The translations under genes and the position numbers were made by a program. The notes below the pieces were generated by a model, which searched no databases, was not told where the DNA came from, and saw nothing but the letters and a program-made list of their open reading frames with translations. Below are positions 14,028 to 29,006 of a stretch of 64,000 nt of DNA, one piece after another (the first letter of the stretch is position 1; every line of letters begins with the position of its first letter). This DNA comes from an uncultured Pelagibacteraceae bacterium (GTDB lineage Bacteria > Pseudomonadota > Alphaproteobacteria > Pelagibacterales > Pelagibacteraceae). The stretch spans positions 61,447 through 125,446 of the forward strand of contig CACGOO010000001.1 in NCBI GenBank assembly GCA_902574685.1, in the 5' to 3' direction.

Positions 14028-15909
14028 ATCGCAAAATATTAATCTTCTTACTTATATTATATTATTCTTTTGCTTAGTTTCGTTGTCTACAGATTTAATA
14101 TTAACTAATAAAATATTTTGGGGCACTTTATTTTTTTTAAGTTTTATTTTTTCAAAAATACACTTCAAGTTTAAGTCAATAGCGGTAGGAATATTTGCTT
14201 TAGGAGCTATGTATATTCAATTGATTCTCAATCAATATGTTTTGTCCGAAGAGTTTTTTCTAAACTGCCTTGGAGTTTTGCTGATCATAAAGTTTTCAGA
14301 ACTTAACAATAAAAATAATCTTTTATCATTTAATTTAATCTCTATGATTATTGCTGTAGCAAGTTTAATTAAGGGTCAAGACATACTAAGTACATTAAAT
14401 TCGTTTCTAATCTTAATACTTTTAGTTATTAATATGTATCTTATTCAACAAAAGGAAATTCTCGATTTCAGTTTAAAAAATATTTTAAAATATTTAGGCT
14501 TTGGTCTTAGTATATTTCCAATAATTATTATTTTTTATCTTGTATTTCCAAGGGCAGAGGTAAATTTCAGATTATTTGATACATCTGCAAGTTCAGTAGG
14601 TATTCCAGATAGCATAGATCTTGGTTCATTTAGCCAGTTTTCGAACTCAGACGAAGAAGTTTTTACTTTAATAAATAACAATTTTAAGAAGGAGGATCTT
14701 TATTTTAGGGTCAAAATCTTTGATTATATGGAAAAAGATCAATCTTGGAGACCTTCCTCAAGTTACTATCTTTTTAGTGAATTTAAAAATTCTTTGAGAA
14801 TAAATGGTAATGAAGATTTAAATAAAAATTATCAGATTATTTTAGAACCATATAAAAAAAAATGGATACCAAGTTTAAAAAACTCAAAATTAATCACTAA
14901 TGATATTCAAATTACAAAAGATTATTTTAACCAGTCTTTTGTAAGTAGGGAACTAATTGACAGAAAAAAGAAATTAATTTTTAAAATGAATAAATCTGAA
15001 TATTCCTTAGATGGTCCACTTAAAAGTTATTATACTTTGTTACCAGAAAACATATCACCGAAAATAAAAGATTGGGTAGATAAAAATAATGTAAGCACTA
15101 AAGAAGAATTTATCGAAAAAATTTATAAAAAATTTTCTGATGGATCGTATTTTTACAACCTTAGTCCTCAGATAAACTCAAATAATAAATATGAAAACTT
15201 TTTCTTTAATTCTAAAGAAGGATACTGCGAATATTATGCAGGAACATTTGTATTACTTACAAGATTAGCACAAATTCCAAGTCGGATAGTGACAGGTTAC
15301 TATGGTGGAGATTTAAATGAGATAGGAAATTTTTTTCAATTTAAACAAAAAGATACACATGCTTGGGCAGAAGTTTGGTTTGATGAAAGAGGGTGGGTTA
15401 GAATTGATCCAACTAGGGCAATACCTAGTTCTAATATTAGAAACTCATTAAATAATTATTTCGTAAACAATGATAAATCTTCAAGCACGATATTTTCTAA
15501 TAATTTTTTCAAAATAATAAATTTTTATTTTAACTATATTGATTTTGTATGGACACAACATTTACTATCGTATGACGATAATGAAAGAAAAAATTTTATA
15601 AAAGAATTATTAAATTTAAATTTTTCAAAAATCGTTGTTTGGATATTCGTACCAATATCATTATTTGTAAGCGTAAAATTATTATATAATTTCAATTCAA
15701 CCAATGTGATGAGGCTAAAATTGGCTTTCATTCTTCTAGGAAAGAAAAGAAAACTTCAAATAAAAAATTCGGATACTATCCAAGAGATTTATCTTAAACT
15801 TATGGAAAAAGATAAAACAAAATACCAAAATTTCTTTAAATTTTACGAGAAGCAGATCTACTCAAATAACCAAATAAGTTTTATAAAAGTTTTAAAGCTA
15901 GTTTTTTAG
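14014..15909 (+). CDS. TgpA-like transmembrane transglutaminase
   Basis: An N-terminal multi-span region (about six helices, residues 10-185; DUF3488-like) is followed by a periplasmic transglutaminase-core domain with the catalytic triad visible as Cys in GYCEYYAGTF near 405, His in DTHAWAEVWFD near 449 and Asp in RIDPTRA near 466. One more helix lies near 545, then a short cytoplasmic C-terminal domain. At 631 residues this is normal for the TgpA family, periplasmic cysteine proteases/transglutaminases usually linked to MoxR and DUF58. The 3' end overlaps the converging beta-helix gene by 12 bases. Confidence 0.9.
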   Translation: MLKIKSQNINLLTYIILFFCLVSLSTDLILTNKIFWGTLFFLSFIFSKIHFKFKSIAVGIFALGAMYIQLILNQYVLSEEFFLNCLGVLLIIKFSELNNKNNLLSFNLISMIIAVASLIKGQDILSTLNSFLILILLVINMYLIQQKEILDFSLKNILKYLGFGLSIFPIIIIFYLVFPRAEVNFRLFDTSASSVGIPDSIDLGSFSQFSNSDEEVFTLINNNFKKEDLYFRVKIFDYMEKDQSWRPSSSYYLFSEFKNSLRINGNEDLNKNYQIILEPYKKKWIPSLKNSKLITNDIQITKDYFNQSFVSRELIDRKKKLIFKMNKSEYSLDGPLKSYYTLLPENISPKIKDWVDKNNVSTKEEFIEKIYKKFSDGSYFYNLSPQINSNNKYENFFFNSKEGYCEYYAGTFVLLTRLAQIPSRIVTGYYGGDLNEIGNFFQFKQKDTHAWAEVWFDERGWVRIDPTRAIPSSNIRNSLNNYFVNNDKSSSTIFSNNFFKIINFYFNYIDFVWTQHLLSYDDNERKNFIKELLNLNFSKIVVWIFVPISLFVSVKLLYNFNSTNVMRLKLAFILLGKKRKLQIKNSDTIQEIYLKLMEKDKTKYQNFFKFYEKQIYSNNQISFIKVLKLVF

Positions 15910-18495
15910 CAAAAGATTTCTCTCTGTTTTAAGTTTATTGTTTTCCTTGATTAATTGAATAATCATTTCTTTCATTATTCTATTCTCCTCAACTGCTCTA
16001 CCGGTTATCTGAGCTAGTCTTTCATTTTCTTTAGCTAATTGTAATTGATCAAATAATTTTTCTAGTTCAGGATCAATTGGTAGTCCCTCTATTTTTTTTC
16101 TAATATTATTTTGAATAACTTTCGTTAATGAAATACTTACTTGGCTATCTTTAAGTCCATTTTGTTCATTAAACTCTAGATTAAATTTTAGGCCGAAATT
16201 ATCAGTATTTTTGCTGATATTTAAACCAGCTTTTACTGCTAAATCATCATTCATAAAATGGGCCATGTCTTTTCTTTCACCGTCTGCAACAATGTCAATT
16301 TTTTCACTCAAAGTTTGATTTAAAGATAGGCCTGTATATGGCTTAAGAACGAAGCCATTTTCAAAAGATTTTGAATACTCAACATTAAATCCACCTGACA
16401 ATACTTGATCCACAGCATCATCAACAGAAAGATCCCCATCTGTAAAAGATGTTAGATAAGTTGGAAGTCTTCTTAGACCATATTTACCATCCACTTCAAT
16501 ATTTAAACTTTGACTATCATCAATTTCTATTTCTTTAGATGCTCTATAATTTACAGCAGCAAACTGACCTAGATTTTCTTTTGAAATAGTTTGCTTTGTT
16601 TCAGTTTCAAGATCTAAATATTTATTTTGAGTTAACCCAAAAATTGAAACTACAGAAAATTTAAATTTCTCGTAATCAATATCTTTTTTTAAACCAATAG
16701 CTAAATTTTCACTATCTATTGCTTCTCCATTATTAAATTTTGCCTGCTGAGATGAATAACTTAAGAACGGTGTAAAGTTATCGTTTTCAATTTTAAAGTC
16801 TCCCGTTACACCACTTGTTTCACTTTTATAAATATTATCTCTTTTTTTAACAGAATAATATCCACTAGATTTTTTTTCTTCAGAAACTGAATTAAAAATA
16901 TCATTTAAATTAGATAAAAATATTTCAGATCTATATTTTTTATTATGGCTATCAATATCTAAATCTTCACCATAAACATATAAAAAACCATCTGTTTCAG
17001 AGTTGTCTGCATCTGGATCACTGTTACTGTCTAATATTTCATAGGTATCATTTCCACAAAGATTATTTGTGACAACCATATTTGTTTTTCTAAGAATTTC
17101 TATTTTTTGATCTTTTGAAATACTACAATCTAATGTCATTGTCGTAGTTGAATCTTTTAAATCAATTGAGCCTTCATACGTACCTTCATCTTTAGTAACA
17201 ATATTTATACCTGTACTAGAAGAGTTAAGTATATATATAGAATTACCAGATCCAGTAATTGTACCATAATTATTTATCGTAATATTAAACATTGGGGTGG
17301 CATTCTTTCCAATACCAATTCCATCTGCAAAAGAACCTGATGTTGCACTAATCGTGCCATAATTGTTTAAAGTATTATTTACTCTGTTGGTTCCATCATT
17401 TTCATACAATATTCCATATCCTGTATTAGAGCTTGCAGAAATGGTTCCATGATTTGTTATCGTAGAATTATCTACATTTGAAGATTGCATTCCCATACCA
17501 ACCCCAGATATAGTGCCAGTATTGGTGACAACGGTGCCGTCCGATTGATTTATTGATAAACCTGAATTTACAGTTGTGGCAGTTATTGTTCCAGAATTTG
17601 TTATACTAATATTATCACCATGTGAAATTACTACTGCGTTATTTCCAGATGTCATTGTCCCTGTATTAATGAAAGTAGTATCCGGGCATGTTTTGCAATA
17701 AAATGCACTTTTATCTACTGCAGTTATTGTTCCATGATTAGTAAAATTGACATTTTCAGATTGTTCAGTATTAACTGCGTGTCTGTCGGCACTTTCAATT
17801 GTTCCTCCTTTGTAATTAACGAATTCAAAATCAACAACATGAAATGCTTTAATTGGGCTATCGCCTTCATCTGTTGTTTTAATAATTCCACCGTCATAAT
17901 TATAAATTTTAAGACCTTTACTCCTGTGATTACCTGAGGCTCCTGAACCTAACCAAATTGTTTCATGAGTAGAGGTAATGGTACCATAATTGTGTAGTGT
18001 GAGACCAACACCATTAGATTGACCAGATAAATCTGAATGGCAATGAGTGCCATTAAAATGACAGTTACCAACGTTTTTTCCATAAATTGCAGTATTTCCG
18101 TCAGCACTTATTGTTGCTCCTGCATTATTGGTAATTACAACGTTTTCTGCATAATTTAATATTATAGCATATTTGTTATCTGAGTTGATTGTTCCGTTAT
18201 TTGTAATTGTAGTATCCAAAGATGACTCAGCATTTATTGCGATTTGTTTGTTAGTTCCATCCTCTGTTTCAATTGTTCCATCATTAGTAATTTCAACTCC
18301 ACTTATATCTTCGAGATCAACTGCCTTATTATCGTTGTAAGTAATTGACCCAGCAGAAGTAACATTTAAAATATCATCATCTGCACATGCTAATTGGTTT
18401 GTTGAAGCACTAGCAATAGTTGTTAAACATGGACCAGCTAAACTATGAGAGCTAAATAAAAAGAATAAAATCAAACAAAGATATATTTTTTTCAT
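15898..18495 (-). CDS. Autotransporter-like beta-helix surface protein
   Basis: Predicted exported protein with a signal peptide (residues 1-20, ending SHSLAG). Residues about 25-430 are built of short repeats of the type ITNNGTI / LNNYGTI at about 20-25 residue spacing, typical of a right-handed beta-helix passenger. Residues about 520-810 are rich in alternating amphipathic strands and resemble an outer-membrane beta-barrel. Unusually, the barrel is followed by about 55 residues of coiled coil (LEKLFDQLQLAKENERLAQ and on to the end), so the protein does not end in the aromatic residue usual for autotransporters. It is the last gene of the minus-strand pilus operon, 12 bases after pilY1. Possible roles are adhesion or a pilus-associated surface factor; neither is shown. 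Confidence 0.7.
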   Translation of the reverse strand: MKKIYLCLILFFLFSSHSLAGPCLTTIASASTNQLACADDDILNVTSAGSITYNDNKAVDLEDISGVEITNDGTIETEDGTNKQIAINAESSLDTTITNNGTINSDNKYAIILNYAENVVITNNAGATISADGNTAIYGKNVGNCHFNGTHCHSDLSGQSNGVGLTLHNYGTITSTHETIWLGSGASGNHRSKGLKIYNYDGGIIKTTDEGDSPIKAFHVVDFEFVNYKGGTIESADRHAVNTEQSENVNFTNHGTITAVDKSAFYCKTCPDTTFINTGTMTSGNNAVVISHGDNISITNSGTITATTVNSGLSINQSDGTVVTNTGTISGVGMGMQSSNVDNSTITNHGTISASSNTGYGILYENDGTNRVNNTLNNYGTISATSGSFADGIGIGKNATPMFNITINNYGTITGSGNSIYILNSSSTGINIVTKDEGTYEGSIDLKDSTTTMTLDCSISKDQKIEILRKTNMVVTNNLCGNDTYEILDSNSDPDADNSETDGFLYVYGEDLDIDSHNKKYRSEIFLSNLNDIFNSVSEEKKSSGYYSVKKRDNIYKSETSGVTGDFKIENDNFTPFLSYSSQQAKFNNGEAIDSENLAIGLKKDIDYEKFKFSVVSIFGLTQNKYLDLETETKQTISKENLGQFAAVNYRASKEIEIDDSQSLNIEVDGKYGLRRLPTYLTSFTDGDLSVDDAVDQVLSGGFNVEYSKSFENGFVLKPYTGLSLNQTLSEKIDIVADGERKDMAHFMNDDLAVKAGLNISKNTDNFGLKFNLEFNEQNGLKDSQVSISLTKVIQNNIRKKIEGLPIDPELEKLFDQLQLAKENERLAQITGRAVEENRIMKEMIIQLIKENNKLKTERNLLLKN

Positions 18496-18507
18496 TATAT
18501 CTATTTG

Positions 18508-21500
18508 TTAATTTTCTCTCCAAGACTTTCTGTAAGTTTGAACTTCACCAGTAGCAGCATCTAAAGTAACAAGGTCAGCAACTGCTCCTAATGATTTACC
18601 AGATATATTTGCAAAAATTTTGCCAGCGAAAAGTACAATTTCTGATAAGACCCCTTTACCAACAAATCTACATAAAGTTTTTTGTTGTTCTGTTCTTTTA
18701 GATTCTAATCCAATAAACGAGTCATGTGTTCCACATTCATCATCAGTTACACAAATTAATGCATCTCCCAAATCACATTTGTTTTGAGATACAGATGGTC
18801 TATAAACTGGGAAGTAAACCATACCATTGTTTACTTTTGGTTGAGCGGTAACTTTAGCAAAATCTTTTAATACAACATACCAACCTCTATCCTTATCTGT
18901 CACTCTACAAGAAGTTCCGCTTCTATCATTTGATGTATTTTGGCATTTTGTAATATCGTCTGCATTTTTTGGAGTTGCGATAGATTTATAGAATGGATAA
19001 TCTGGATCTTTTATTCCAATCATTAAGTTACTTGTTCCTTTTACTCTTGCATTCAATCTTTGAGCATCCCCAGTTCCAGCGTACAACCATAAATTATTTG
19101 TTGTTCCACCAATTGAAGCATCTAATGGTTTATACATGTATCTACCATTTGATTTAGTTGCTCCTGCTTTAAATAATGTTGTTATGTCATACATTTTTAT
19201 AGGTACATTTTGAGGATCTGTACTCATATTTGTTAAATTTAATTTACTAATTTTACCTTCTAAATCAGACAAGTATACAAGTGCTCCTGCAAAGTCAGCA
19301 CCCCTTGCTTTATCTGGAGTAATAACTGTTAATGATGCGGGAACAGAATTATCAATATCGCTTGCAGTAGTATCTTCTACCGTAATTGTCTTTATTAATT
19401 GTCCAAACTTATCTTTTGATTGCAGATCTATAACAAATACGTTGCTACCAGCTCCTGAGAATTGAGCACCAAAACCTCCACCCATTACAGCAACTGATAT
19501 ATCGTCATCTCTGACATTGTCTCCAGCACCAGCATTAGGTAGTCTAAATATTCTTGGATCTGACCATGTTTCTCCAAGAGTACTGTAGTCCCATTCAGGG
19601 TCTGTTACAACTCCAGTACCAACTGCTCCTTGTTTTATATTCACTCCGATCGGTGAGTTGTCTCTTTGAGTTTTGGACTCATCAGCATCAAATTTCATTT
19701 TTTTGTTGAAATTAATTTGAGTGTTTCCAGATGTATCATAGCTAATTGTAATGCTATTTGTTATATCAACTCCATCTTCAAGAACTGATAGCATACTTTT
19801 AGTTAGACTTTTTACTGGTAAAGTCCATTTTGTGCTTTCGTAACAATATTTTGTTTGTGTATCATCACAAGTTTGCTTACTGGCAACTTCATTATCTTTA
19901 TCTGGAGCATAAACGTTACCTACTTCTTGCGCCTCTAGAAATTCACTTAGAGGATAAGATGTACCTATATAATCATATACAAAAACATTATTTGCATGAT
20001 CCATTCTGTACACCTGATTATTAATCATATCATTATATATTGAGACTAAATGCTCTGGTTTTGCAGGATCAGTCACATCTAACACAGAGAAACCACTACC
20101 TCCTCTTCCATAAGGTACAAACAATACGGTATGCCAATTTGCAGATGTATCATGTGGACTTTGAAAGAAAATATCATGTTGAACGGGAGATCCATCAACA
20201 CCATAAATTGCATTTGAACCTCCTTTGTTTGGATTAATTTCATTTAAGTTAGTATTCATTATTGTAGGTAATCTTGATGCTATAAATGGTGGCACAAATC
20301 CCCACAATTCTACTCCTGAGCCTGCATCTAAAGCATGCAAAACTCCACTATTTGATCCAGCATAAATTACAGGTTTTCTCAATCTCTGAGATTCTGCCCA
20401 ACTATCATATCCCTTAGTTGATCTCCAATAAGCTTCTTGATTTTCACTTGTAAAAGCTGTTTCTGCAGTTGGTGGTCCTACAACAACTAATTGTGAATGG
20501 TAAACATCTCCCATTGGCTTAGCTCTTGTTTCTGTCAGATTACAATCTGCATCATAATCAAAATAATCTGTCCCTCTAATAAAATTAATTAAGCCTTTTA
20601 AATCATCATCTGTTCCATCAGCAACACCACTTGTGTTCGCACATCTTTTATTATTTATAGAATTATCAGTATTTTTAGTTTTTCTGTGATAGTCCTGAAT
20701 ATCAAACCCTTTTAGAGTTAAGATACTTTCAATCGCTGAAGAATTACTATCTACCCAGTTGTTGTAATTAGTCGAATAATCTGTTCCAGGAATTGGACTC
20801 CATATCTTTCTATTCCCTGGTTTAGGTAATACATCAACAGCTGACCAATTACCTTTATCTTTTGTATCAAGATTTCCTTTTTTATCTATTTTTGTTCTCT
20901 TAATTGTTCCAGTCCACTCTTTATTTTGAGCATAATCAAACTGTGCTTGATACAATGATCCATCAGAGTTTAATGTTGCAGTAATAGCAGGCGCTGTGAA
21001 AGATAACTTAGATGCAATTATTTGTGAAACAGCAGCAGCTAGTTGAGTTTTGAGTGACTCTGCTGTTGGAGCAACAATAGCTTTTGTTGTTCCTCCTGCT
21101 ACAGCTAGTTCGTTAAAGTACCTCATTCCTCTATTGCTAATTCCTGTTCCAAAAGCAATGGCGAATGTGGGTATCTTATAATTATTAAATAAGTTTTTTG
21201 CCATAGCCACAGCTTTTGAGTGATTGTACCAATCACCATCTCCAATAACGAGGACATAACTTTTTTGACAAGGTGAATTTTTATCAATTGGGCTTAAACT
21301 TCCATGAAGATAATAGTCTTGAGCTATTTTCATAAATGTATAGGCATCAGTTCCACCTCTTGCATTAACTGACGAAATAATTTTGTTAATTTGCGCAGCC
21401 CCATTATTATGAACTCTTACTTTTAAACAGTTTTGGGTATCACAAGGTTTTGCTCTACCTGTGGTTATATCCCCTGACCATGAACTAAAACCTGGTGGCC

Positions 21501-22644
21501 ATGCTTTCGATGACCATGAACTTGACCAATAACCAAAGCCAAAATTTACACCTGATGTTAAATTGGAGTCTGTGACCACTGCTTTTATGGCTTTATGTGC
21601 TGCTGCCATTCTTGTAGTAGCAGCATATCCACCAATAGACTTTATATATGTTCCATTTTCATCAAAGACCTGAACTTTTTTTGCATTATATCCATAGGTA
21701 ATAATCCTATCATTGCTATGATCATAACTAATTCCAAAAGGATAATAAAAAAATGTATTACTTGCAGTTGAAATACCCATGTATCGGTATCTGCCTTTGT
21801 CCCAATTTAATGTGTATCCAGTTCTTGACGAGTTAACAGTTATTTTACGCATCTTATTATAGCTACGAGCCATAATATAAAGCACATCATTTGTGTTAGG
21901 GTCTGCTTCCATTCCATAAACATAGCCTGAAGCACTATCTCTAAAATATTTAGCTCTTCCTGAAGGACACAAAGTGCCTCCAACACTAGTTAAAGGAGCA
22001 CTATAAAGATAACGACTATAGTGACTGTAAAGAGTATTGTTACTTCCTGCAATAGCATATGTATATCTCCATTCATTATGGTAATTACAACGTCTTCCAC
22101 TATTAGTGTTCAGGTTCATTGAATACAAACCACTGTTGGAAGTGGTAAATAAATAATTTTGATAAACTGTTACACCTCTAGGATAAGTGCCAGTAGCTAA
22201 ACTTCCTAAACAAGCACCATCTGAAAGTCTAATCTTTCTAATTCTATGGTCATATAAACTTGCCACATACATGACCCCGTTATAAACATCTGCACTGTAA
22301 GGATAGTAAGTTCGACATGACCCACTCATACCAACTCTTCCATTTGAACCCCAAGAAGTATCAGTTTTACCAGTAGTATAATCTATTTTTCTAACCCCAT
22401 ATCTTGAAAATTGTGCAATATAAATATTTCCTGAACTGTCCGTAACACCATCAAACATTCTATTGATTGATTGTGCGTTACTCATTCTCCAACCCATACT
22501 TCCAGATTTATCTAAAAGAATTAATAAGTTGGAAGGAACATCAGCTTGTGTTCCAGTGCCTGGCGGCAATAATTTTGCATGTAAGTTTGATGCAAAAAAA
22601 GAAAAGAACAGTATTAGGCTGGATATAAAAATTTTAAATTTCAT
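18508..22644 (-). CDS. pilY1: PilY1-like pilus tip/adhesin protein
   Basis: Large exported pilus-associated protein (1378 residues, signal peptide to about residue 23). A von Willebrand A domain begins at about residue 40 with the MIDAS sequence LLDKSGSM, is interrupted by about 275 residues of beta-propeller-like repeats (VTDSSGNIYIAQFS, AIAGSNNTLYSH), and resumes near 335 (RMAAAHKAIKAVV) with the later MIDAS Thr (GGTDAYTF) and Asp (YVLVIGDGDWYNH). The C-terminal half is the PilY1 beta-propeller (GDVYHSQLVVVGPP, VIYAGSNSGVLHALDAGSG, WLYAGTGDAQ). PilY1 acts in pilus assembly, adhesion and surface sensing. It overlaps the upstream unknown gene by one base and follows the minor pilins, the usual pilVWXY1 order. 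Confidence 0.9.
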   Translation of the reverse strand: MKFKIFISSLILFFSFFASNLHAKLLPPGTGTQADVPSNLLILLDKSGSMGWRMSNAQSINRMFDGVTDSSGNIYIAQFSRYGVRKIDYTTGKTDTSWGSNGRVGMSGSCRTYYPYSADVYNGVMYVASLYDHRIRKIRLSDGACLGSLATGTYPRGVTVYQNYLFTTSNSGLYSMNLNTNSGRRCNYHNEWRYTYAIAGSNNTLYSHYSRYLYSAPLTSVGGTLCPSGRAKYFRDSASGYVYGMEADPNTNDVLYIMARSYNKMRKITVNSSRTGYTLNWDKGRYRYMGISTASNTFFYYPFGISYDHSNDRIITYGYNAKKVQVFDENGTYIKSIGGYAATTRMAAAHKAIKAVVTDSNLTSGVNFGFGYWSSSWSSKAWPPGFSSWSGDITTGRAKPCDTQNCLKVRVHNNGAAQINKIISSVNARGGTDAYTFMKIAQDYYLHGSLSPIDKNSPCQKSYVLVIGDGDWYNHSKAVAMAKNLFNNYKIPTFAIAFGTGISNRGMRYFNELAVAGGTTKAIVAPTAESLKTQLAAAVSQIIASKLSFTAPAITATLNSDGSLYQAQFDYAQNKEWTGTIKRTKIDKKGNLDTKDKGNWSAVDVLPKPGNRKIWSPIPGTDYSTNYNNWVDSNSSAIESILTLKGFDIQDYHRKTKNTDNSINNKRCANTSGVADGTDDDLKGLINFIRGTDYFDYDADCNLTETRAKPMGDVYHSQLVVVGPPTAETAFTSENQEAYWRSTKGYDSWAESQRLRKPVIYAGSNSGVLHALDAGSGVELWGFVPPFIASRLPTIMNTNLNEINPNKGGSNAIYGVDGSPVQHDIFFQSPHDTSANWHTVLFVPYGRGGSGFSVLDVTDPAKPEHLVSIYNDMINNQVYRMDHANNVFVYDYIGTSYPLSEFLEAQEVGNVYAPDKDNEVASKQTCDDTQTKYCYESTKWTLPVKSLTKSMLSVLEDGVDITNSITISYDTSGNTQINFNKKMKFDADESKTQRDNSPIGVNIKQGAVGTGVVTDPEWDYSTLGETWSDPRIFRLPNAGAGDNVRDDDISVAVMGGGFGAQFSGAGSNVFVIDLQSKDKFGQLIKTITVEDTTASDIDNSVPASLTVITPDKARGADFAGALVYLSDLEGKISKLNLTNMSTDPQNVPIKMYDITTLFKAGATKSNGRYMYKPLDASIGGTTNNLWLYAGTGDAQRLNARVKGTSNLMIGIKDPDYPFYKSIATPKNADDITKCQNTSNDRSGTSCRVTDKDRGWYVVLKDFAKVTAQPKVNNGMVYFPVYRPSVSQNKCDLGDALICVTDDECGTHDSFIGLESKRTEQQKTLCRFVGKGVLSEIVLFAGKIFANISGKSLGAVADLVTLDAATGEVQTYRKSWREN

Positions 22645-23192
22645 TAATTTTGAGACTCACTTTTCGCCATCTCTTCTTCAAGTTGATTATAGAAAATTCC
22701 AAGTAACTCATCATATTTTTTGTTAGAAAGATACATTTGCTCTTCAATAAATCCAAGATCATCCAAAGTTCTTTGGTAAACTATAAACTGCTTTGTTTTT
22801 TCAAATACTTCATATCCAAGATATGAGGTTGGAGTTTGACCTGTATCAAAGTCACCATAATTTCTTTTTACATATTTCATTATAGTTAATTTTTCAGATT
22901 TTTTTGTGTCGCTTTCAGTATTTAAACTAATTAAATTAACCGCAGCTAGTTTGTCGTTTAAAAATCTATACTCAATAGCAACATCTTTTAACCTGTGGTT
23001 TGGGCAGACTTCATCAGCAACAGCAATGACCATGCTCAATTCATCTTCTCCAAAATTTTCTAGTGGCATTGCTTGGCCATATTTGTCCTGTATTTTTGAG
23101 ATATCCTCTCCAAAATCTAAATCAAATTTACAAGCTGCGTTTGCATGAATTGAGAAAAGGAATATGAAGCTTATTAAAATAATTTTTTTCAT
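22644..23192 (-). CDS. Unknown periplasmic protein in the pilus operon
   Basis: I do not recognise this protein. It has 182 residues, with a clear signal peptide (MKKIILISFIFLFSIHANA then ACKFD), so it is probably periplasmic. The mature part is mixed alpha/beta with two cysteines (ACKF and EVCPNH) that could form a disulfide. Its stop overlaps the pilY1 ATG (TAATG), which implies coupled translation and a role alongside PilY1 or the minor pilins. It is too large and has the wrong N-terminus to be PilE or another pilin, since no FTxxE-type segment is present. Confidence 0.75.
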   Translation of the reverse strand: MKKIILISFIFLFSIHANAACKFDLDFGEDISKIQDKYGQAMPLENFGEDELSMVIAVADEVCPNHRLKDVAIEYRFLNDKLAAVNLISLNTESDTKKSEKLTIMKYVKRNYGDFDTGQTPTSYLGYEVFEKTKQFIVYQRTLDDLGFIEEQMYLSNKKYDELLGIFYNQLEEEMAKSESQN

Positions 23193-23242: not shown

Positions 23243-24001
23243 TTAATTTTTAGGTAAAACTACCACACTTTCTAACGAAACTATCATTCTATCTTTTTCT
23301 TTTTCAGCTCCATAAATACCACAACCATAAACTCTGTAAGCAATACCATTCTTTGAAGCATCAGATGCCGTTAATTTAATGCTGGATCCTATTGCTTGTG
23401 TACTTGCAGCACCAATTCTTTCAATAAAGTACTCATAATAATAACTTTTCATTCTAACTGCTTCCTCTTTTTCAAAATCTTTACCTTTATTTTTAAAGGT
23501 ATTTTCAAGAATTACTCCAAGATTAAAACTGTGAGCCACTTCTTTTTTCGTGGTTTCATTCTTTATAACTCTCATCCTTTTTTTGTTGTCTGGATTATCC
23601 CTATCAATATCTCTATAGCTTTTAAAACAAGATGTACCTGTATTTATAAATTTTCGATCAATTGTTGATGTAAATTTATATTTAGCACCTGGATTATAGT
23701 TTTGCGCACTCATAGTTCCTAAAAAAGGAGAGGTATGATCTTCTGGTAAATTTGCTTTCGAAGTATCTCTAGTGCTTTTTCCATCCCATGGCCCACTTTT
23801 CTCATTTAAAATATATTTCTCTCCTTCTAACAGAGCCATCTCTGCGGCATAAAATGTTTGTTGATATTGATCACTGTTATTATTGCTTTGATGGTCACCC
23901 GATGAAATTAATATTAATGCTCCACCCATTAATGACATTGCTAGTAGCAAAACTAATGACAAAACCATTGCAAACCCTTTTTCTGATTTTCTAATTATCA
24001 T
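23243..24001 (-). CDS. pilX: PilX-like minor pilin
   Basis: Minor pilin of 252 residues. The N-terminus has the PilX pattern: short charged leader, KGFAMVLSLVLLLAMSLMGG hydrophobic helix, then DHQSNNNSDQYQQTFYAAEMALLEGE, matching the PilX family N-terminal domain. It lacks the Glu5 of major pilins, as PilX/GspK-type proteins often do. It overlaps pilW by 4 bases and is 50 bases upstream of the unknown gene. In other bacteria PilX primes pilus assembly together with PilV, PilW and PilY1. Confidence 0.88.
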   Translation of the reverse strand: MIIRKSEKGFAMVLSLVLLLAMSLMGGALILISSGDHQSNNNSDQYQQTFYAAEMALLEGEKYILNEKSGPWDGKSTRDTSKANLPEDHTSPFLGTMSAQNYNPGAKYKFTSTIDRKFINTGTSCFKSYRDIDRDNPDNKKRMRVIKNETTKKEVAHSFNLGVILENTFKNKGKDFEKEEAVRMKSYYYEYFIERIGAASTQAIGSSIKLTASDASKNGIAYRVYGCGIYGAEKEKDRMIVSLESVVVLPKN

Positions 24002-24798
24002 AACCCCATATTTCTTGTGTATGCTGATACAACTAAAGCTTCTCTTAAAAACTTATCTGTGAATTTCTTATTAGATTTTTCACCTAAAAGTCTAAATGGT
24101 CTTTCCTGCTCTTTTCTAAAAAACTCACCTTGAGATCTTAAAGATACCATTATATCAACAACTTTAATCTTGTTACTATCGCTAAGCGTTTTAGGAATTG
24201 GATTCATCACTTTACCCTTGCTATCAATTGGAATAAAAATTAATTCTTGAACGTAATCAACTACTAATTCGTCTTTATAAAGTAAGTCATCAGTTGATTG
24301 TGTTGGTGCCGTCCAGCTAGATCCATTCCATTCATATTTTGATTTATAAATAGCATATGCATTAATTTTTTTGCTTGTTTTTTTGTCTAGAATATTTGAT
24401 GCTTTACACTCGTAAACGACTTTGTATGTTTTATATAAAAAAACTGGTGGTTTAGCATTAGGATTTTTAGGATCTCTAATTCTATCACCGTAAGTTATTT
24501 CAATTTTATCACAACCGCTACCTGGAGCTTTAGTAATTAAAATTGGAACGTAATTTGTTGGGGTTTTACTGACATCATCAAAATATCTAAAACCTGCAAT
24601 TCTTATATCTCTCACTAACATTCCAATCATATCTCTTCCTGTCTGACTAATTTTTGCTCTATCAATTACTTGTGAATAACTATTATTAACTGCGTTATAA
24701 GATGTAAACATAGCAGCCATCATTATCATTGAAATCACAACCCCGATAAGAATTTCAATTAGCGTTACTCCAGTTTCTGAATTAAATTTTTTCATCAT
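23998..24798 (-). CDS. pilW: PilW-like minor pilin
   Basis: A 266-residue protein with a prepilin leader and N-methylation helix (ETGVTLIEILIGVVISMIMM), the canonical Glu at mature position 5 (TLIE), and the PilW-like phrase GRDMIGMLVRDIRIAGFRYF. It is cleaved by the prepilin peptidase after Gly. It starts 1 base before the end of pilV (ATGA overlap) and overlaps pilX, so the group is translationally coupled. Confidence 0.9.
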   Translation of the reverse strand: MMKKFNSETGVTLIEILIGVVISMIMMAAMFTSYNAVNNSYSQVIDRAKISQTGRDMIGMLVRDIRIAGFRYFDDVSKTPTNYVPILITKAPGSGCDKIEITYGDRIRDPKNPNAKPPVFLYKTYKVVYECKASNILDKKTSKKINAYAIYKSKYEWNGSSWTAPTQSTDDLLYKDELVVDYVQELIFIPIDSKGKVMNPIPKTLSDSNKIKVVDIMVSLRSQGEFFRKEQERPFRLLGEKSNKKFTDKFLREALVVSAYTRNMGL

Positions 24799-25436
24799 TT
24801 CATTTGGAAATATAAATATTTCTTCTTTTGAACAGTTTTACCTTTTGTATCTGTCCCTGTAGTTGGCATTAATATTTCCATTCTGCCAATATAAGTTTTG
24901 TCCCAAATATCATCATTACGATAATCACAGTTTGGTCTACTCTTCCCATTTTCTTTTACGTTATTTCTACAAATCTCATAAACTTTTAATTTTTTTATGT
25001 CATTGGTAAGTGTTGAACCAATACTTGTAGGTTGGCATTTAATTCTGTCGCTTGATACTCTCAAATTCCACTTTTGTGTTTTATTATCAATAGCAATATC
25101 TGCGCCCTTATAAGGATTACCAGTTATATTATTTCTTTTTCTGCATTCTGCATTTTGCCAAGCGTAATCATTCTTATCTGTTAAGTTAGCCAGATGTTCA
25201 TAAAGTTTATCATCACCTTTTTTTGAATTTGCATCTCCAATTAAATCTTCTGCTATCATAGCAGTGATATAATTAGATTTTGTTCTTTCCCCAGAAACAT
25301 CAATTGATCTAACTGAATAATTGACCATCTGAAAAACCGCTATAAAACCTATTCCAACAATAGCCGTTGCAACTAAAGCTTCTAAAAGCGTTAAACCCTT
25401 TTCTTTTAATTTACTGTCTATTCCAATCACTTCCAT
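24795..25436 (-). CDS. pilV: PilV-like minor pilin
   Basis: A 213-residue prepilin-like protein with leader and helix EKGLTLLEALVATAIVGIGF (Glu5 in TLLEA), the usual PilV form. The C-terminal part carries several cysteines. It overlaps the upstream fimT-like gene by 26 bases and pilW by 4 bases. It is expected to act in the minor-pilin priming complex. Confidence 0.88.
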   Translation of the reverse strand: MEVIGIDSKLKEKGLTLLEALVATAIVGIGFIAVFQMVNYSVRSIDVSGERTKSNYITAMIAEDLIGDANSKKGDDKLYEHLANLTDKNDYAWQNAECRKRNNITGNPYKGADIAIDNKTQKWNLRVSSDRIKCQPTSIGSTLTNDIKKLKVYEICRNNVKENGKSRPNCDYRNDDIWDKTYIGRMEILMPTTGTDTKGKTVQKKKYLYFQMK

Positions 25437-26142
25437 TCCATTTAAATTTACTTACATTACCAAATCTTGACCATTTTACTAAATAGGCTGGTTTTTCAAG
25501 AGCCTTTCCTTTTGTAGGACATTTGTTTCCATTTTTTTTTGCGTTCTCATAAGTGCAAATAACAATGTAATTAGGAGTAGCGCTACCTTCAACAATGATG
25601 TTAACGTTACTTCCTTTTGAAAGAGCATTGGTTGCTTTATAATAATTTCCTCCTTTACCAAAACATATTGCAGATGTTAATAGAAAATGAACTGCAATTT
25701 TAGACTCGCCAATTACATTTTCCTCAGGATTGAAAATTTCGTAATACTCACTAAAATTTGTTCCCTCAATATTTTTACGTGGTTTACCAAAATCATCCCA
25801 ATAACCTGATGAGGATACTGGACAATTAATTTGTCCATTCTGCAATTTTTGTTTGAAATTTTTATCTCCCATTCCCTTTGATACAAAAATTGAGCTTTCT
25901 TGGTTTTTAGAGCCTGTAAATGTTCGTACCATTAATTGGCTATAAGCTAAGTTTCCTCTTTGAGTTTGTGTTGCAATATTAGAAATCATGCTTGCAACTT
26001 TTTCTGTTGCAGCTCTTACTTTTCGTTCTGTGCTCCATTTTGAAAAACTTGGATACGCTACACCAGATATGATTGCTACAATTGCAATAACAACTAGCAA
26101 TTCTAAAATTGTGAAACCTTTAATGTCCTGATCTTGCTGCAC
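25411..26142 (-). CDS. fimT: FimT/GspH-like pseudopilin
   Basis: A 243-residue prepilin-like protein. The start is GTG and the leader is short (MQQDQDIKG), followed by FTILELLVVIAIVAIISGVA with Glu5 and the FimT/GspH-like continuation SFSKWSTERKVRAATEKV. It overlaps the 3' end of pilT by 23 bases. FimT-type pseudopilins are accessory pilins; some bind DNA in other bacteria, but I see no direct evidence of that here. Confidence 0.85.
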   Translation of the reverse strand: MQQDQDIKGFTILELLVVIAIVAIISGVAYPSFSKWSTERKVRAATEKVASMISNIATQTQRGNLAYSQLMVRTFTGSKNQESSIFVSKGMGDKNFKQKLQNGQINCPVSSSGYWDDFGKPRKNIEGTNFSEYYEIFNPEENVIGESKIAVHFLLTSAICFGKGGNYYKATNALSKGSNVNIIVEGSATPNYIVICTYENAKKNGNKCPTKGKALEKPAYLVKWSRFGNVSKFKWNGSDWNRQ

Positions 26143-27290: not shown

Positions 27291-29006
27291 ATGAAAAACC
27301 CTTTTGCTAATTTATTCAAAAAGAAATCTAAAGAAGGTGAACAAACACCAGTTCCAAAAACAGAGGAAAAAAAGAAAAAAGAAAGTTTTTTAGGTAAGTT
27401 TTTTAAAAATAGAATTGGAAAATCTGCAGTTCAAGGAGAAGAAATTGTAGGTGTTGAGCTTTCACCAACAGAAATTAGGTTAGCACAACTAACAACTGAT
27501 AAATCCAACAAATGGGTTTTAGAAAAATTTTTTATTCACCCAATTGAAGGTCTAGATAAAAGTGCTACTGTTTTAGATAATCAAGATAAGTTTGGAGACG
27601 AACTTAAAATTGCTCTTCAAAAATCTAAAATAACTACGACAAATGCTGCGATTGCCATTCCTGTAACTAGTGCAATTATCAGAGTTGTAACAGCACCTCT
27701 AATGACAGATGAAGAGCTGAGCAAAGCAATAGACACAGACTCTCTTTGGGAAAACCTTGTACAATTAACAGATAACTTAAATGATTATTCAATTTTTCAT
27801 CAAGTAATAAATAGAGATAAAACCGCAAATACAATGGATATTTTATTCGTTGCATCGAAACTATCAGATATCAATAGTTATACAGCAATAATAAAGAAGG
27901 GTGGTTTAAATGCAGTTATAATTGATGTTAAGTGTTTTGCTCTTAAATCCGCAGTCGACCAAATGAATCAATTAGCTGGCTCAATTGAGGATGCAAACTT
28001 AACCGCTGTTTTAGAATTTGGATTAGATGAAAACTATGTAATGATTTTGTATGAAAATAATCCAATCATCACAGATATATTTATAAGATCTCAAGATAGA
28101 AATACTCTTCAAAATTCAGATAATCAGGAAGAGATGGATGCTTTAGTTAGAAGATATGTAACTCAAGTTAAACAAGCGGTGCAAGATTTTGAAACAAAGT
28201 ATGAAAAAAGAATTAGAAACCTGAAAGTAGTATCAAATTTAGAAAATGTAGAAACTTATCTTGGCACTTTTAGAAAAAATTTAACAAATACAGGATTTAA
28301 TTTATTAGATCCAATTAAAGAAATAAAAGTACCAGCACAACTAGAAGAGAGCGTTAAGTTAGATAATAGGTCTTATCTTTCAACTGTTATTGGATTGGCG
28401 TTTAGAAAACTTGATGTATTTGGATATTACAAATTTGTAACTGCTGTAAAAAATATAAATCTACTTCCTAATAGAGATAGCATGATAGCACAGAAAAAAG
28501 CCAAAGTATTTTCTAATTTTGCTTTCAAAGGCGCAATAGGAGTTATCGCAATAATTTATATAGTATTATTTGGCCTTTCTTTTTGGCAAATAAATACATT
28601 GAATAAACAATTAGTTGGATATGATGATATTCTTCAAACACATGAACTTAGAACATTAGAAAAAAATAAAGTAGAAAAAGAATTAGCTTTAATTTTAAAA
28701 TCTTTAAAAATTAGTAAATCAATAAAATCAAACAAAAAAGTGAGTTTTAGAGTTCTGGCTCAAATAGCTTCAGCTGTTCCAAAAAGAGTAAAATTCAATT
28801 CAATAGAGTACAACGGATCAAATCAGATTATTATACAAGGAACAGCATCAAGTGACCAAGATATTTTAAAGTTAATAAGTAATTTAAATAATAAAAAACT
28901 AATAATGCAAGCACAATTAGCCACAATGACCTTACCAGATGGTCAAACTGCTGGAGCTCCTACAATGAAGGGATTTAAAATAGCTTGTATTCTGGAGAGC
29001 GCATAA
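27291..29006 (+). CDS. pilM: PilM-PilN fusion protein
   Basis: A 571-residue protein that joins two normally separate pilus subunits. Residues 1-45 are a charged, lysine-rich N-terminal extension. Residues about 50-385 form the actin-like PilM domain (EIVGVELSPTEIRLAQL, AIAIPVTSAIIRVVTAP). At 389 the PilN motif INLLPNRD appears, followed by a membrane helix at about 412-433 and a PilN-like periplasmic coiled coil and ferredoxin-like fold to the end. In typical systems the PilN N-terminal INLLP peptide binds in a PilM groove; here it is covalently tethered. The stop overlaps the pilO start (TAATG). No separate pilN is present. Confidence 0.9.
   Translation: MKNPFANLFKKKSKEGEQTPVPKTEEKKKKESFLGKFFKNRIGKSAVQGEEIVGVELSPTEIRLAQLTTDKSNKWVLEKFFIHPIEGLDKSATVLDNQDKFGDELKIALQKSKITTTNAAIAIPVTSAIIRVVTAPLMTDEELSKAIDTDSLWENLVQLTDNLNDYSIFHQVINRDKTANTMDILFVASKLSDINSYTAIIKKGGLNAVIIDVKCFALKSAVDQMNQLAGSIEDANLTAVLEFGLDENYVMILYENNPIITDIFIRSQDRNTLQNSDNQEEMDALVRRYVTQVKQAVQDFETKYEKRIRNLKVVSNLENVETYLGTFRKNLTNTGFNLLDPIKEIKVPAQLEESVKLDNRSYLSTVIGLAFRKLDVFGYYKFVTAVKNINLLPNRDSMIAQKKAKVFSNFAFKGAIGVIAIIYIVLFGLSFWQINTLNKQLVGYDDILQTHELRTLEKNKVEKELALILKSLKISKSIKSNKKVSFRVLAQIASAVPKRVKFNSIEYNGSNQIIIQGTASSDQDILKLISNLNNKKLIMQAQLATMTLPDGQTAGAPTMKGFKIACILESA

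Follow-up and report, generated by a model that had tools for sequence, protein, structure and literature searches.

SAR11 bacteria, which rank with the ocean's most abundant, are regarded as free-floating. In a 1.04-Mb genome of this group (Pelagibacteraceae), a gene was found whose product begins a von Willebrand A (vWA) domain, reaches the DxSxS part of its MIDAS (metal-site) motif, and then continues not with the expected helix but with a long run of repeat-like sequence. The locus raises the questions of what the intervening segment is, whether the vWA domain around it is intact, and what such an arrangement might do at the end of a pilus. The window examined, i.e., the whole stretch of DNA analyzed, is 64,000 nt, and all coordinates refer to it (Table 1).

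The pilY1 Gene and Its Pilus Locus

Judged by its sequence and gene neighborhood, the encoded protein (P0001) is a PilY1. When the whole protein was searched against Pfam and NCBIfam, the only matches were to VWA_2 and an NHL-type family, both weak, and PF05567 was missed; profile and part-wise searches were needed. With the C-terminal part, PF05567 scored 43.5 bits (cut-off 28.1), and the PilY1 structure 3HX6 was matched at E=1e-14 by this part alone and at E=2.7e-25 with profile A2. The frame is also present whole in relatives. Upstream is a minor-pilin operon of four minor-pilin-like genes (two of them just below cut-off) and a T2SSE ATPase, after which homologues of PilM, PilN, PilO and PilP are encoded on the opposite strand. 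The adjoining minor-pilin genes are those expected of a type IVa pilus, and by analogy with PilY1 proteins elsewhere P0001 would be located at the pilus tip.

The 182-aa protein encoded beside pilY1 is a candidate pilus-tip accessory factor. At 27291–29006 (+), a single 571-aa frame has both PilM_2 and PilN matches, indicating that PilM and PilN are apparently fused. Adjoining pilY1 at 15898–18495 (-) is the gene for a secreted repeat protein of 865 aa, for which neither Pfam nor NCBIfam gave a match; it is often only ~74% identical in strains with PilY1 proteins that are 98–100% identical, its residues 1–269 frequently lie outside the best match, and it constitutes a second variable surface protein.

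Table 1. Coordinates of pilY1, of the segments of its product P0001, and of neighboring genes within the window.
Feature	Position	Strand	Basis
pilY1 gene, product P0001 (1378 aa)	18508..22644	(-)	Open frame; PF05567; 3HX6 is best PDB match
Putative signal peptide, residues 1-23	22576..22644	(-)	Sequence: hydrophobic stretch, AxA-like end
beta1 and MIDAS DxSxS, residues 38-50 (D45, S47, S49)	22495..22533	(-)	Partial VWA_2 match; 17 homologues
Inserted segment, residues 55-342 (288 aa)	21619..22482	(-)	Alignments; position shared by every Pelagibacterales PilY1 examined
Six-bladed NHL-type propeller, residues 59-338	21631..22470	(-)	AlphaFold, Foldseek, insert profile vs PDB
Most variable propeller part, residues 187-241 (top loops and blade 4)	21922..22086	(-)	Variable-site mapping
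Remaining vWA, residues 343-545 (alpha1 345-357)	21010..21618	(-)	Strand/helix order of model; spliced-query Pfam
MIDAS Thr432 (GGTDA)	21349..21351	(-)	Invariant, 17 homologues
MIDAS Asp469 (IGDGD)	21238..21240	(-)	Invariant, 17 homologues
C-terminal PilY1 region, residues 701-1378	18511..20544	(-)	PF05567 at residues 712-876
182-aa protein with no family assignment, encoded between pilX and pilY1	22644..23192	(-)	Conserved beside pilY1 throughout the order
pilX-like minor pilin	23243..24001	(-)	PilX_N 24.2 bits, cut-off 25.5 (slightly below)
Minor pilin, pilW-like position	23998..24798	(-)	N_methyl 20.3 bits, cut-off 21.2 (slightly below)
Minor pilin, pilV-like position	24795..25436	(-)	N_methyl above cut-off
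Minor pilin, fimT/fimU-like position	25411..26142	(-)	N_methyl above cut-off

A Propeller within the Metal-Site Loop

The inserted segment is a complete NHL-type propeller, and it interrupts the PilY1 vWA domain at the beta1-alpha1 (MIDAS) loop. AlphaFold modeling of residues 24–600 gave a closed ring of six blades, each of four strands, with pLDDT mostly 80–93 over the propeller, and a second model, of a homologue with 66% identity, gave the same six-bladed form. The blades of P0001 start at approximately residues 63, 118, 158, 197, 242 and 302. A profile built from 18 insert sequences matched the NHL propellers of TRIM71, Thin, NHLRC2, PknD and Pizza in the PDB (best E=1.1e-15), and Foldseek aligned the modeled propeller with Pizza6 (TM 0.79 over 278 columns), Trim71 (TM 0.74), Thin (TM 0.69), NHLRC2 and PknD. 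Pfam NHL did not exceed its cut-off in P0001 itself and did so in seven relatives (L006, L056, L183, L185, L186, L187 and L193). A whole propeller in the metal-site loop was the central claim of the original prediction, and structure prediction across residues 60–335 upheld it.

The vWA domain and its MIDAS motif, as read from the alignments, are complete on both sides of the insert. The DKSGS motif starts at residue 45, where it had been predicted, and D45, S47, S49, T432 and D469 are all invariant among 17 homologues (32–72% identity); T432 and D469, which follow the helix, complete the motif. The helix itself (RMAAAHKAIKAV) had been placed near residue 335 and starts at 345; likewise, the NHL/SMP-type insert, put at about 275 residues, is of NHL type and slightly longer, at 288. 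The split is clearest in a relative from another genus of Pelagibacteraceae (L186), where Pfam finds NHL after beta1 and ahead of the remaining VWA, whose match resumes at profile position 17 once the insert is passed. Removing the insert from this query produced one unbroken VWA match (profile 1–167 of 174) and raised the score from 33.3 to 47.1 bits, and the same operation on P0001 raised VWA_2 from 18.5 to 26.5 bits, slightly below the cut-off of 27. In both AlphaFold models the strand and helix order of this part fits a vWA domain, with pLDDT mostly 30–75, a confidence too low to place the propeller relative to the vWA domain.

Distribution and the Insertion Point in Other PilY1 Proteins

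PilY1 proteins of the P0001 type were found in 80 of the 247 Pelagibacterales genomes searched, representing five of ten genera. Wherever the N-terminus was in hand, the insertion point was identical, with inserts of ~270–460 residues; this holds down to ~30% identity, in other genera and in a second family of Pelagibacterales, as well as in paralogues whose motif is DxTxS or another variant. No PilY1 lacking the insert was seen among the Pelagibacterales proteins examined, and its presence is order-wide in this sense. In some SAR11 genomes pilY1 is present in two or three copies (L189–L192; G714, G855, G915), the extra ones having MIDAS variants (DRTFS, DRTYS, DKSQS) and more divergent inserts.

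Beyond the order, a class-wide profile search with the whole protein gave no match in 288 other alphaproteobacterial genomes, and the origin of the insert was therefore not found. The insert profile did not match any of 60 PilY1 proteins of other families. In a search of 398 genomes of the phylum for the split vWA-NHL unit, the matches listed from outside the source genome were to NHL or vWA and never to both, and in the library of papers searched PilY1 and 'NHL repeat' do not occur together. Viral contigs in IMG/VR, searched as a source of diverse relatives, yielded three matches only, to the C-terminal part of PilY1; L151–L153, from contigs classed as viral, are relatives of this part.

An insert at this point is not in itself unusual, and the idea that it is was rejected. 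From the 60 PilY1 proteins of other families, 32 with DxSxSM and a recognizable alpha1 (assigned by motif or by eye) were compared. In 24 of them MIDAS and alpha1 are 127–363 residues apart, the intervening segment mostly ending in NWYxYYRxR; in the remaining eight the distance is 5–13 residues. Since large inserts are this frequent, the absence of an immediate helix, noted for P0001, is normal for PilY1 rather than exceptional. Four PilY1 proteins of other proteobacteria (L135, L143, L146, L149) have large inserts elsewhere in the vWA domain, after beta2. Lineage-specific vWA insertions have already been published (PMC10374093), so the principle is known and the propeller is the new content; none was found in the other PilY1 proteins sampled.

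Rate and Pattern of Sequence Change

After the signal peptide, the insert is the fastest-changing part of PilY1. Identity within the L041 pair is 48% in the insert and 74% in the vWA domain, and among the long forms the corresponding values are 16–24% and 33–38%. In nine proteins that are 98–100% identical, 33 of the 47 variable positions fall inside the insert (Fisher P=2.6e-13). For L033, pairwise nonsynonymous and synonymous changes number 17 and 5 within the insert, compared with 6 and 46 outside it. Synonymous divergence is not raised in the insert (0.023 vs 0.05–0.13), which argues against an imported foreign allele, and codon-model omega is 0.486 there compared with 0.015, 0.031 and 0.026 elsewhere.

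Within the propeller, change is concentrated on one face, a pattern that depends on strand borders taken from the predicted model. In the close set (8–9 sequences), omega is 0.91 for the top face (D-A and B-C loops), 0.09 for the bottom (A-B and C-D loops), 0.35 for the strands and 1.03 for blades 3–4; several changes are common to L042 and L043, so the variable sites are not independent events. Variable residues occupy 16 of 88 top-loop positions and 1 of 47 bottom-loop positions (P=0.006). Blades 1 and 6, on either side of the linkers, are conserved. In a wider set the face bias is much weaker (omega 0.27 for the top, 0.08 for the bottom) and entropies are nearly equal. Fast, one-faced change of this kind is what a recognition surface would be expected to look like, and mean omega is at or below 1, a value that relaxed constraint could also produce.

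Possible Function of the Propeller

The explanation that we consider probable is that PilY1 acts as a tip adhesin in which the MIDAS-loop propeller serves as a recognition head for a varying partner. The vWA domain, with its intact MIDAS, would form a fixed stage under the propeller, which would be displayed at the pilus end. One face, mainly the loops of blades 3–4, would contact the partner, candidates being a glycan or protein on particle or algal surfaces, other cells, or phage. Blades 1 and 6, which bear the linkers, would hold the propeller on the MIDAS face. From the known fold, both linkers should exit the vWA domain on the MIDAS side; in the propeller they connect to blades 1 and 6, on the side where the variable loops lie, and blades 3–4, which vary most, are across the ring. 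These features are most economically read as a display head mounted on the vWA domain, a reading in which both the placement of the propeller and the binding of a ligand are inferred. A precedent comes from the PilY1 of Acinetobacter (ComC), where removal of a vWA insertion (166–256) was equivalent to larger deletions for adhesion, twitching and transformation (PMC10374093).

A doubtful variant is a single-chain, integrin-like head, with the ligand held between the top face of the propeller and the MIDAS, so that metal, ligand and pilus tension are coupled by way of the MIDAS loop and SAR11 strains vary the propeller half according to target. Such a composite site could possibly resemble integrins in its working, not in its descent.

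Type IV pili serve as phage receptors in other bacteria, and the top face may instead be the grip of a phage or predator, changing for escape rather than to track a ligand. An omega of 0.9–1.0 on one face among close strains and the variable surface protein encoded next door would suit this, but no phage is known here to use the pilus of P0001, and we regard it as unlikely. It is improbable that the insert is a passive spacer, merely enlarging the tip or filling a tolerant loop, with its fast change due to relaxed constraint. PilY1 vWA domains do accept inserts of widely differing length here, and mean omega is under 1; however, the blade fold is maintained across the order despite 16–24% identity, constraint is strong on the bottom loops and strands and not on the top loops, and insert-less forms were not seen among the Pelagibacterales proteins examined. 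The least probable explanation is the gate or mechanosensor of the original prediction, with the propeller lying over the MIDAS until pilus tension or ligand contact moves it aside and bares the metal site: the insertion does fall within the MIDAS loop itself, its linkers are flanked by conserved blades 1 and 6, and the vWA domain of Pseudomonas PilY1 has been implicated in force sensing (PMC8806160; PMC11891296), but an internal lid is not expected to have a fast-evolving face, the low vWA pLDDT in both models gives no geometry, and most PilY1 proteins have other bulky inserts here, so that propeller-based gating would be specific to SAR11. The pattern of sequence change points to a variable recognition surface over a gate.

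If a fast-changing recognition head of this kind is indeed carried on a conserved pilus tip, many SAR11 bacteria (80/247 genomes) would make contact with something specific and recognize it. What their pili bind then becomes a directly testable question using one soluble domain, and the protein is in addition a clear example of an entire domain sitting inside a vWA metal-site loop.

Comparison with Known Systems

The SAR11 protein shares with Pseudomonas aeruginosa PilY1 (3HX6 C-terminal propeller, PF05567) the C-terminal region, the DxSxS...T...D pattern of the vWA domain and the minor-pilin operon. It differs in that its beta1-alpha1 insert is an NHL propeller, whereas most other sampled PilY1 proteins have a different segment ending in NWYxYYRxR. 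Acinetobacter ComC likewise has lineage-specific vWA insertions (Iruegas et al. 2023, PMC10374093), including a finger-like one, and an interchangeable tool head has been proposed there. The ComC inserts are beta fingers or partly disordered folds, while that of SAR11 is a complete globular propeller found order-wide. TRIM71/Lin41, Thin, NHLRC2, the PknD sensor and the designed Pizza6 also have six NHL-pattern blades of ~40–50 residues each; unlike these, the SAR11 propeller is nested in another domain, extracellular, and built of divergent repeats. The integrin head combines a propeller and MIDAS-bearing vWA-type I domains in one adhesive unit. A pairing of propeller and vWA-type I domains in this head is described in one published account (PMC12422189). 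No homology is claimed, and the nesting is reversed: in integrin alpha the vWA domain lies inside the propeller, whereas in SAR11 PilY1 the propeller lies inside the vWA domain.
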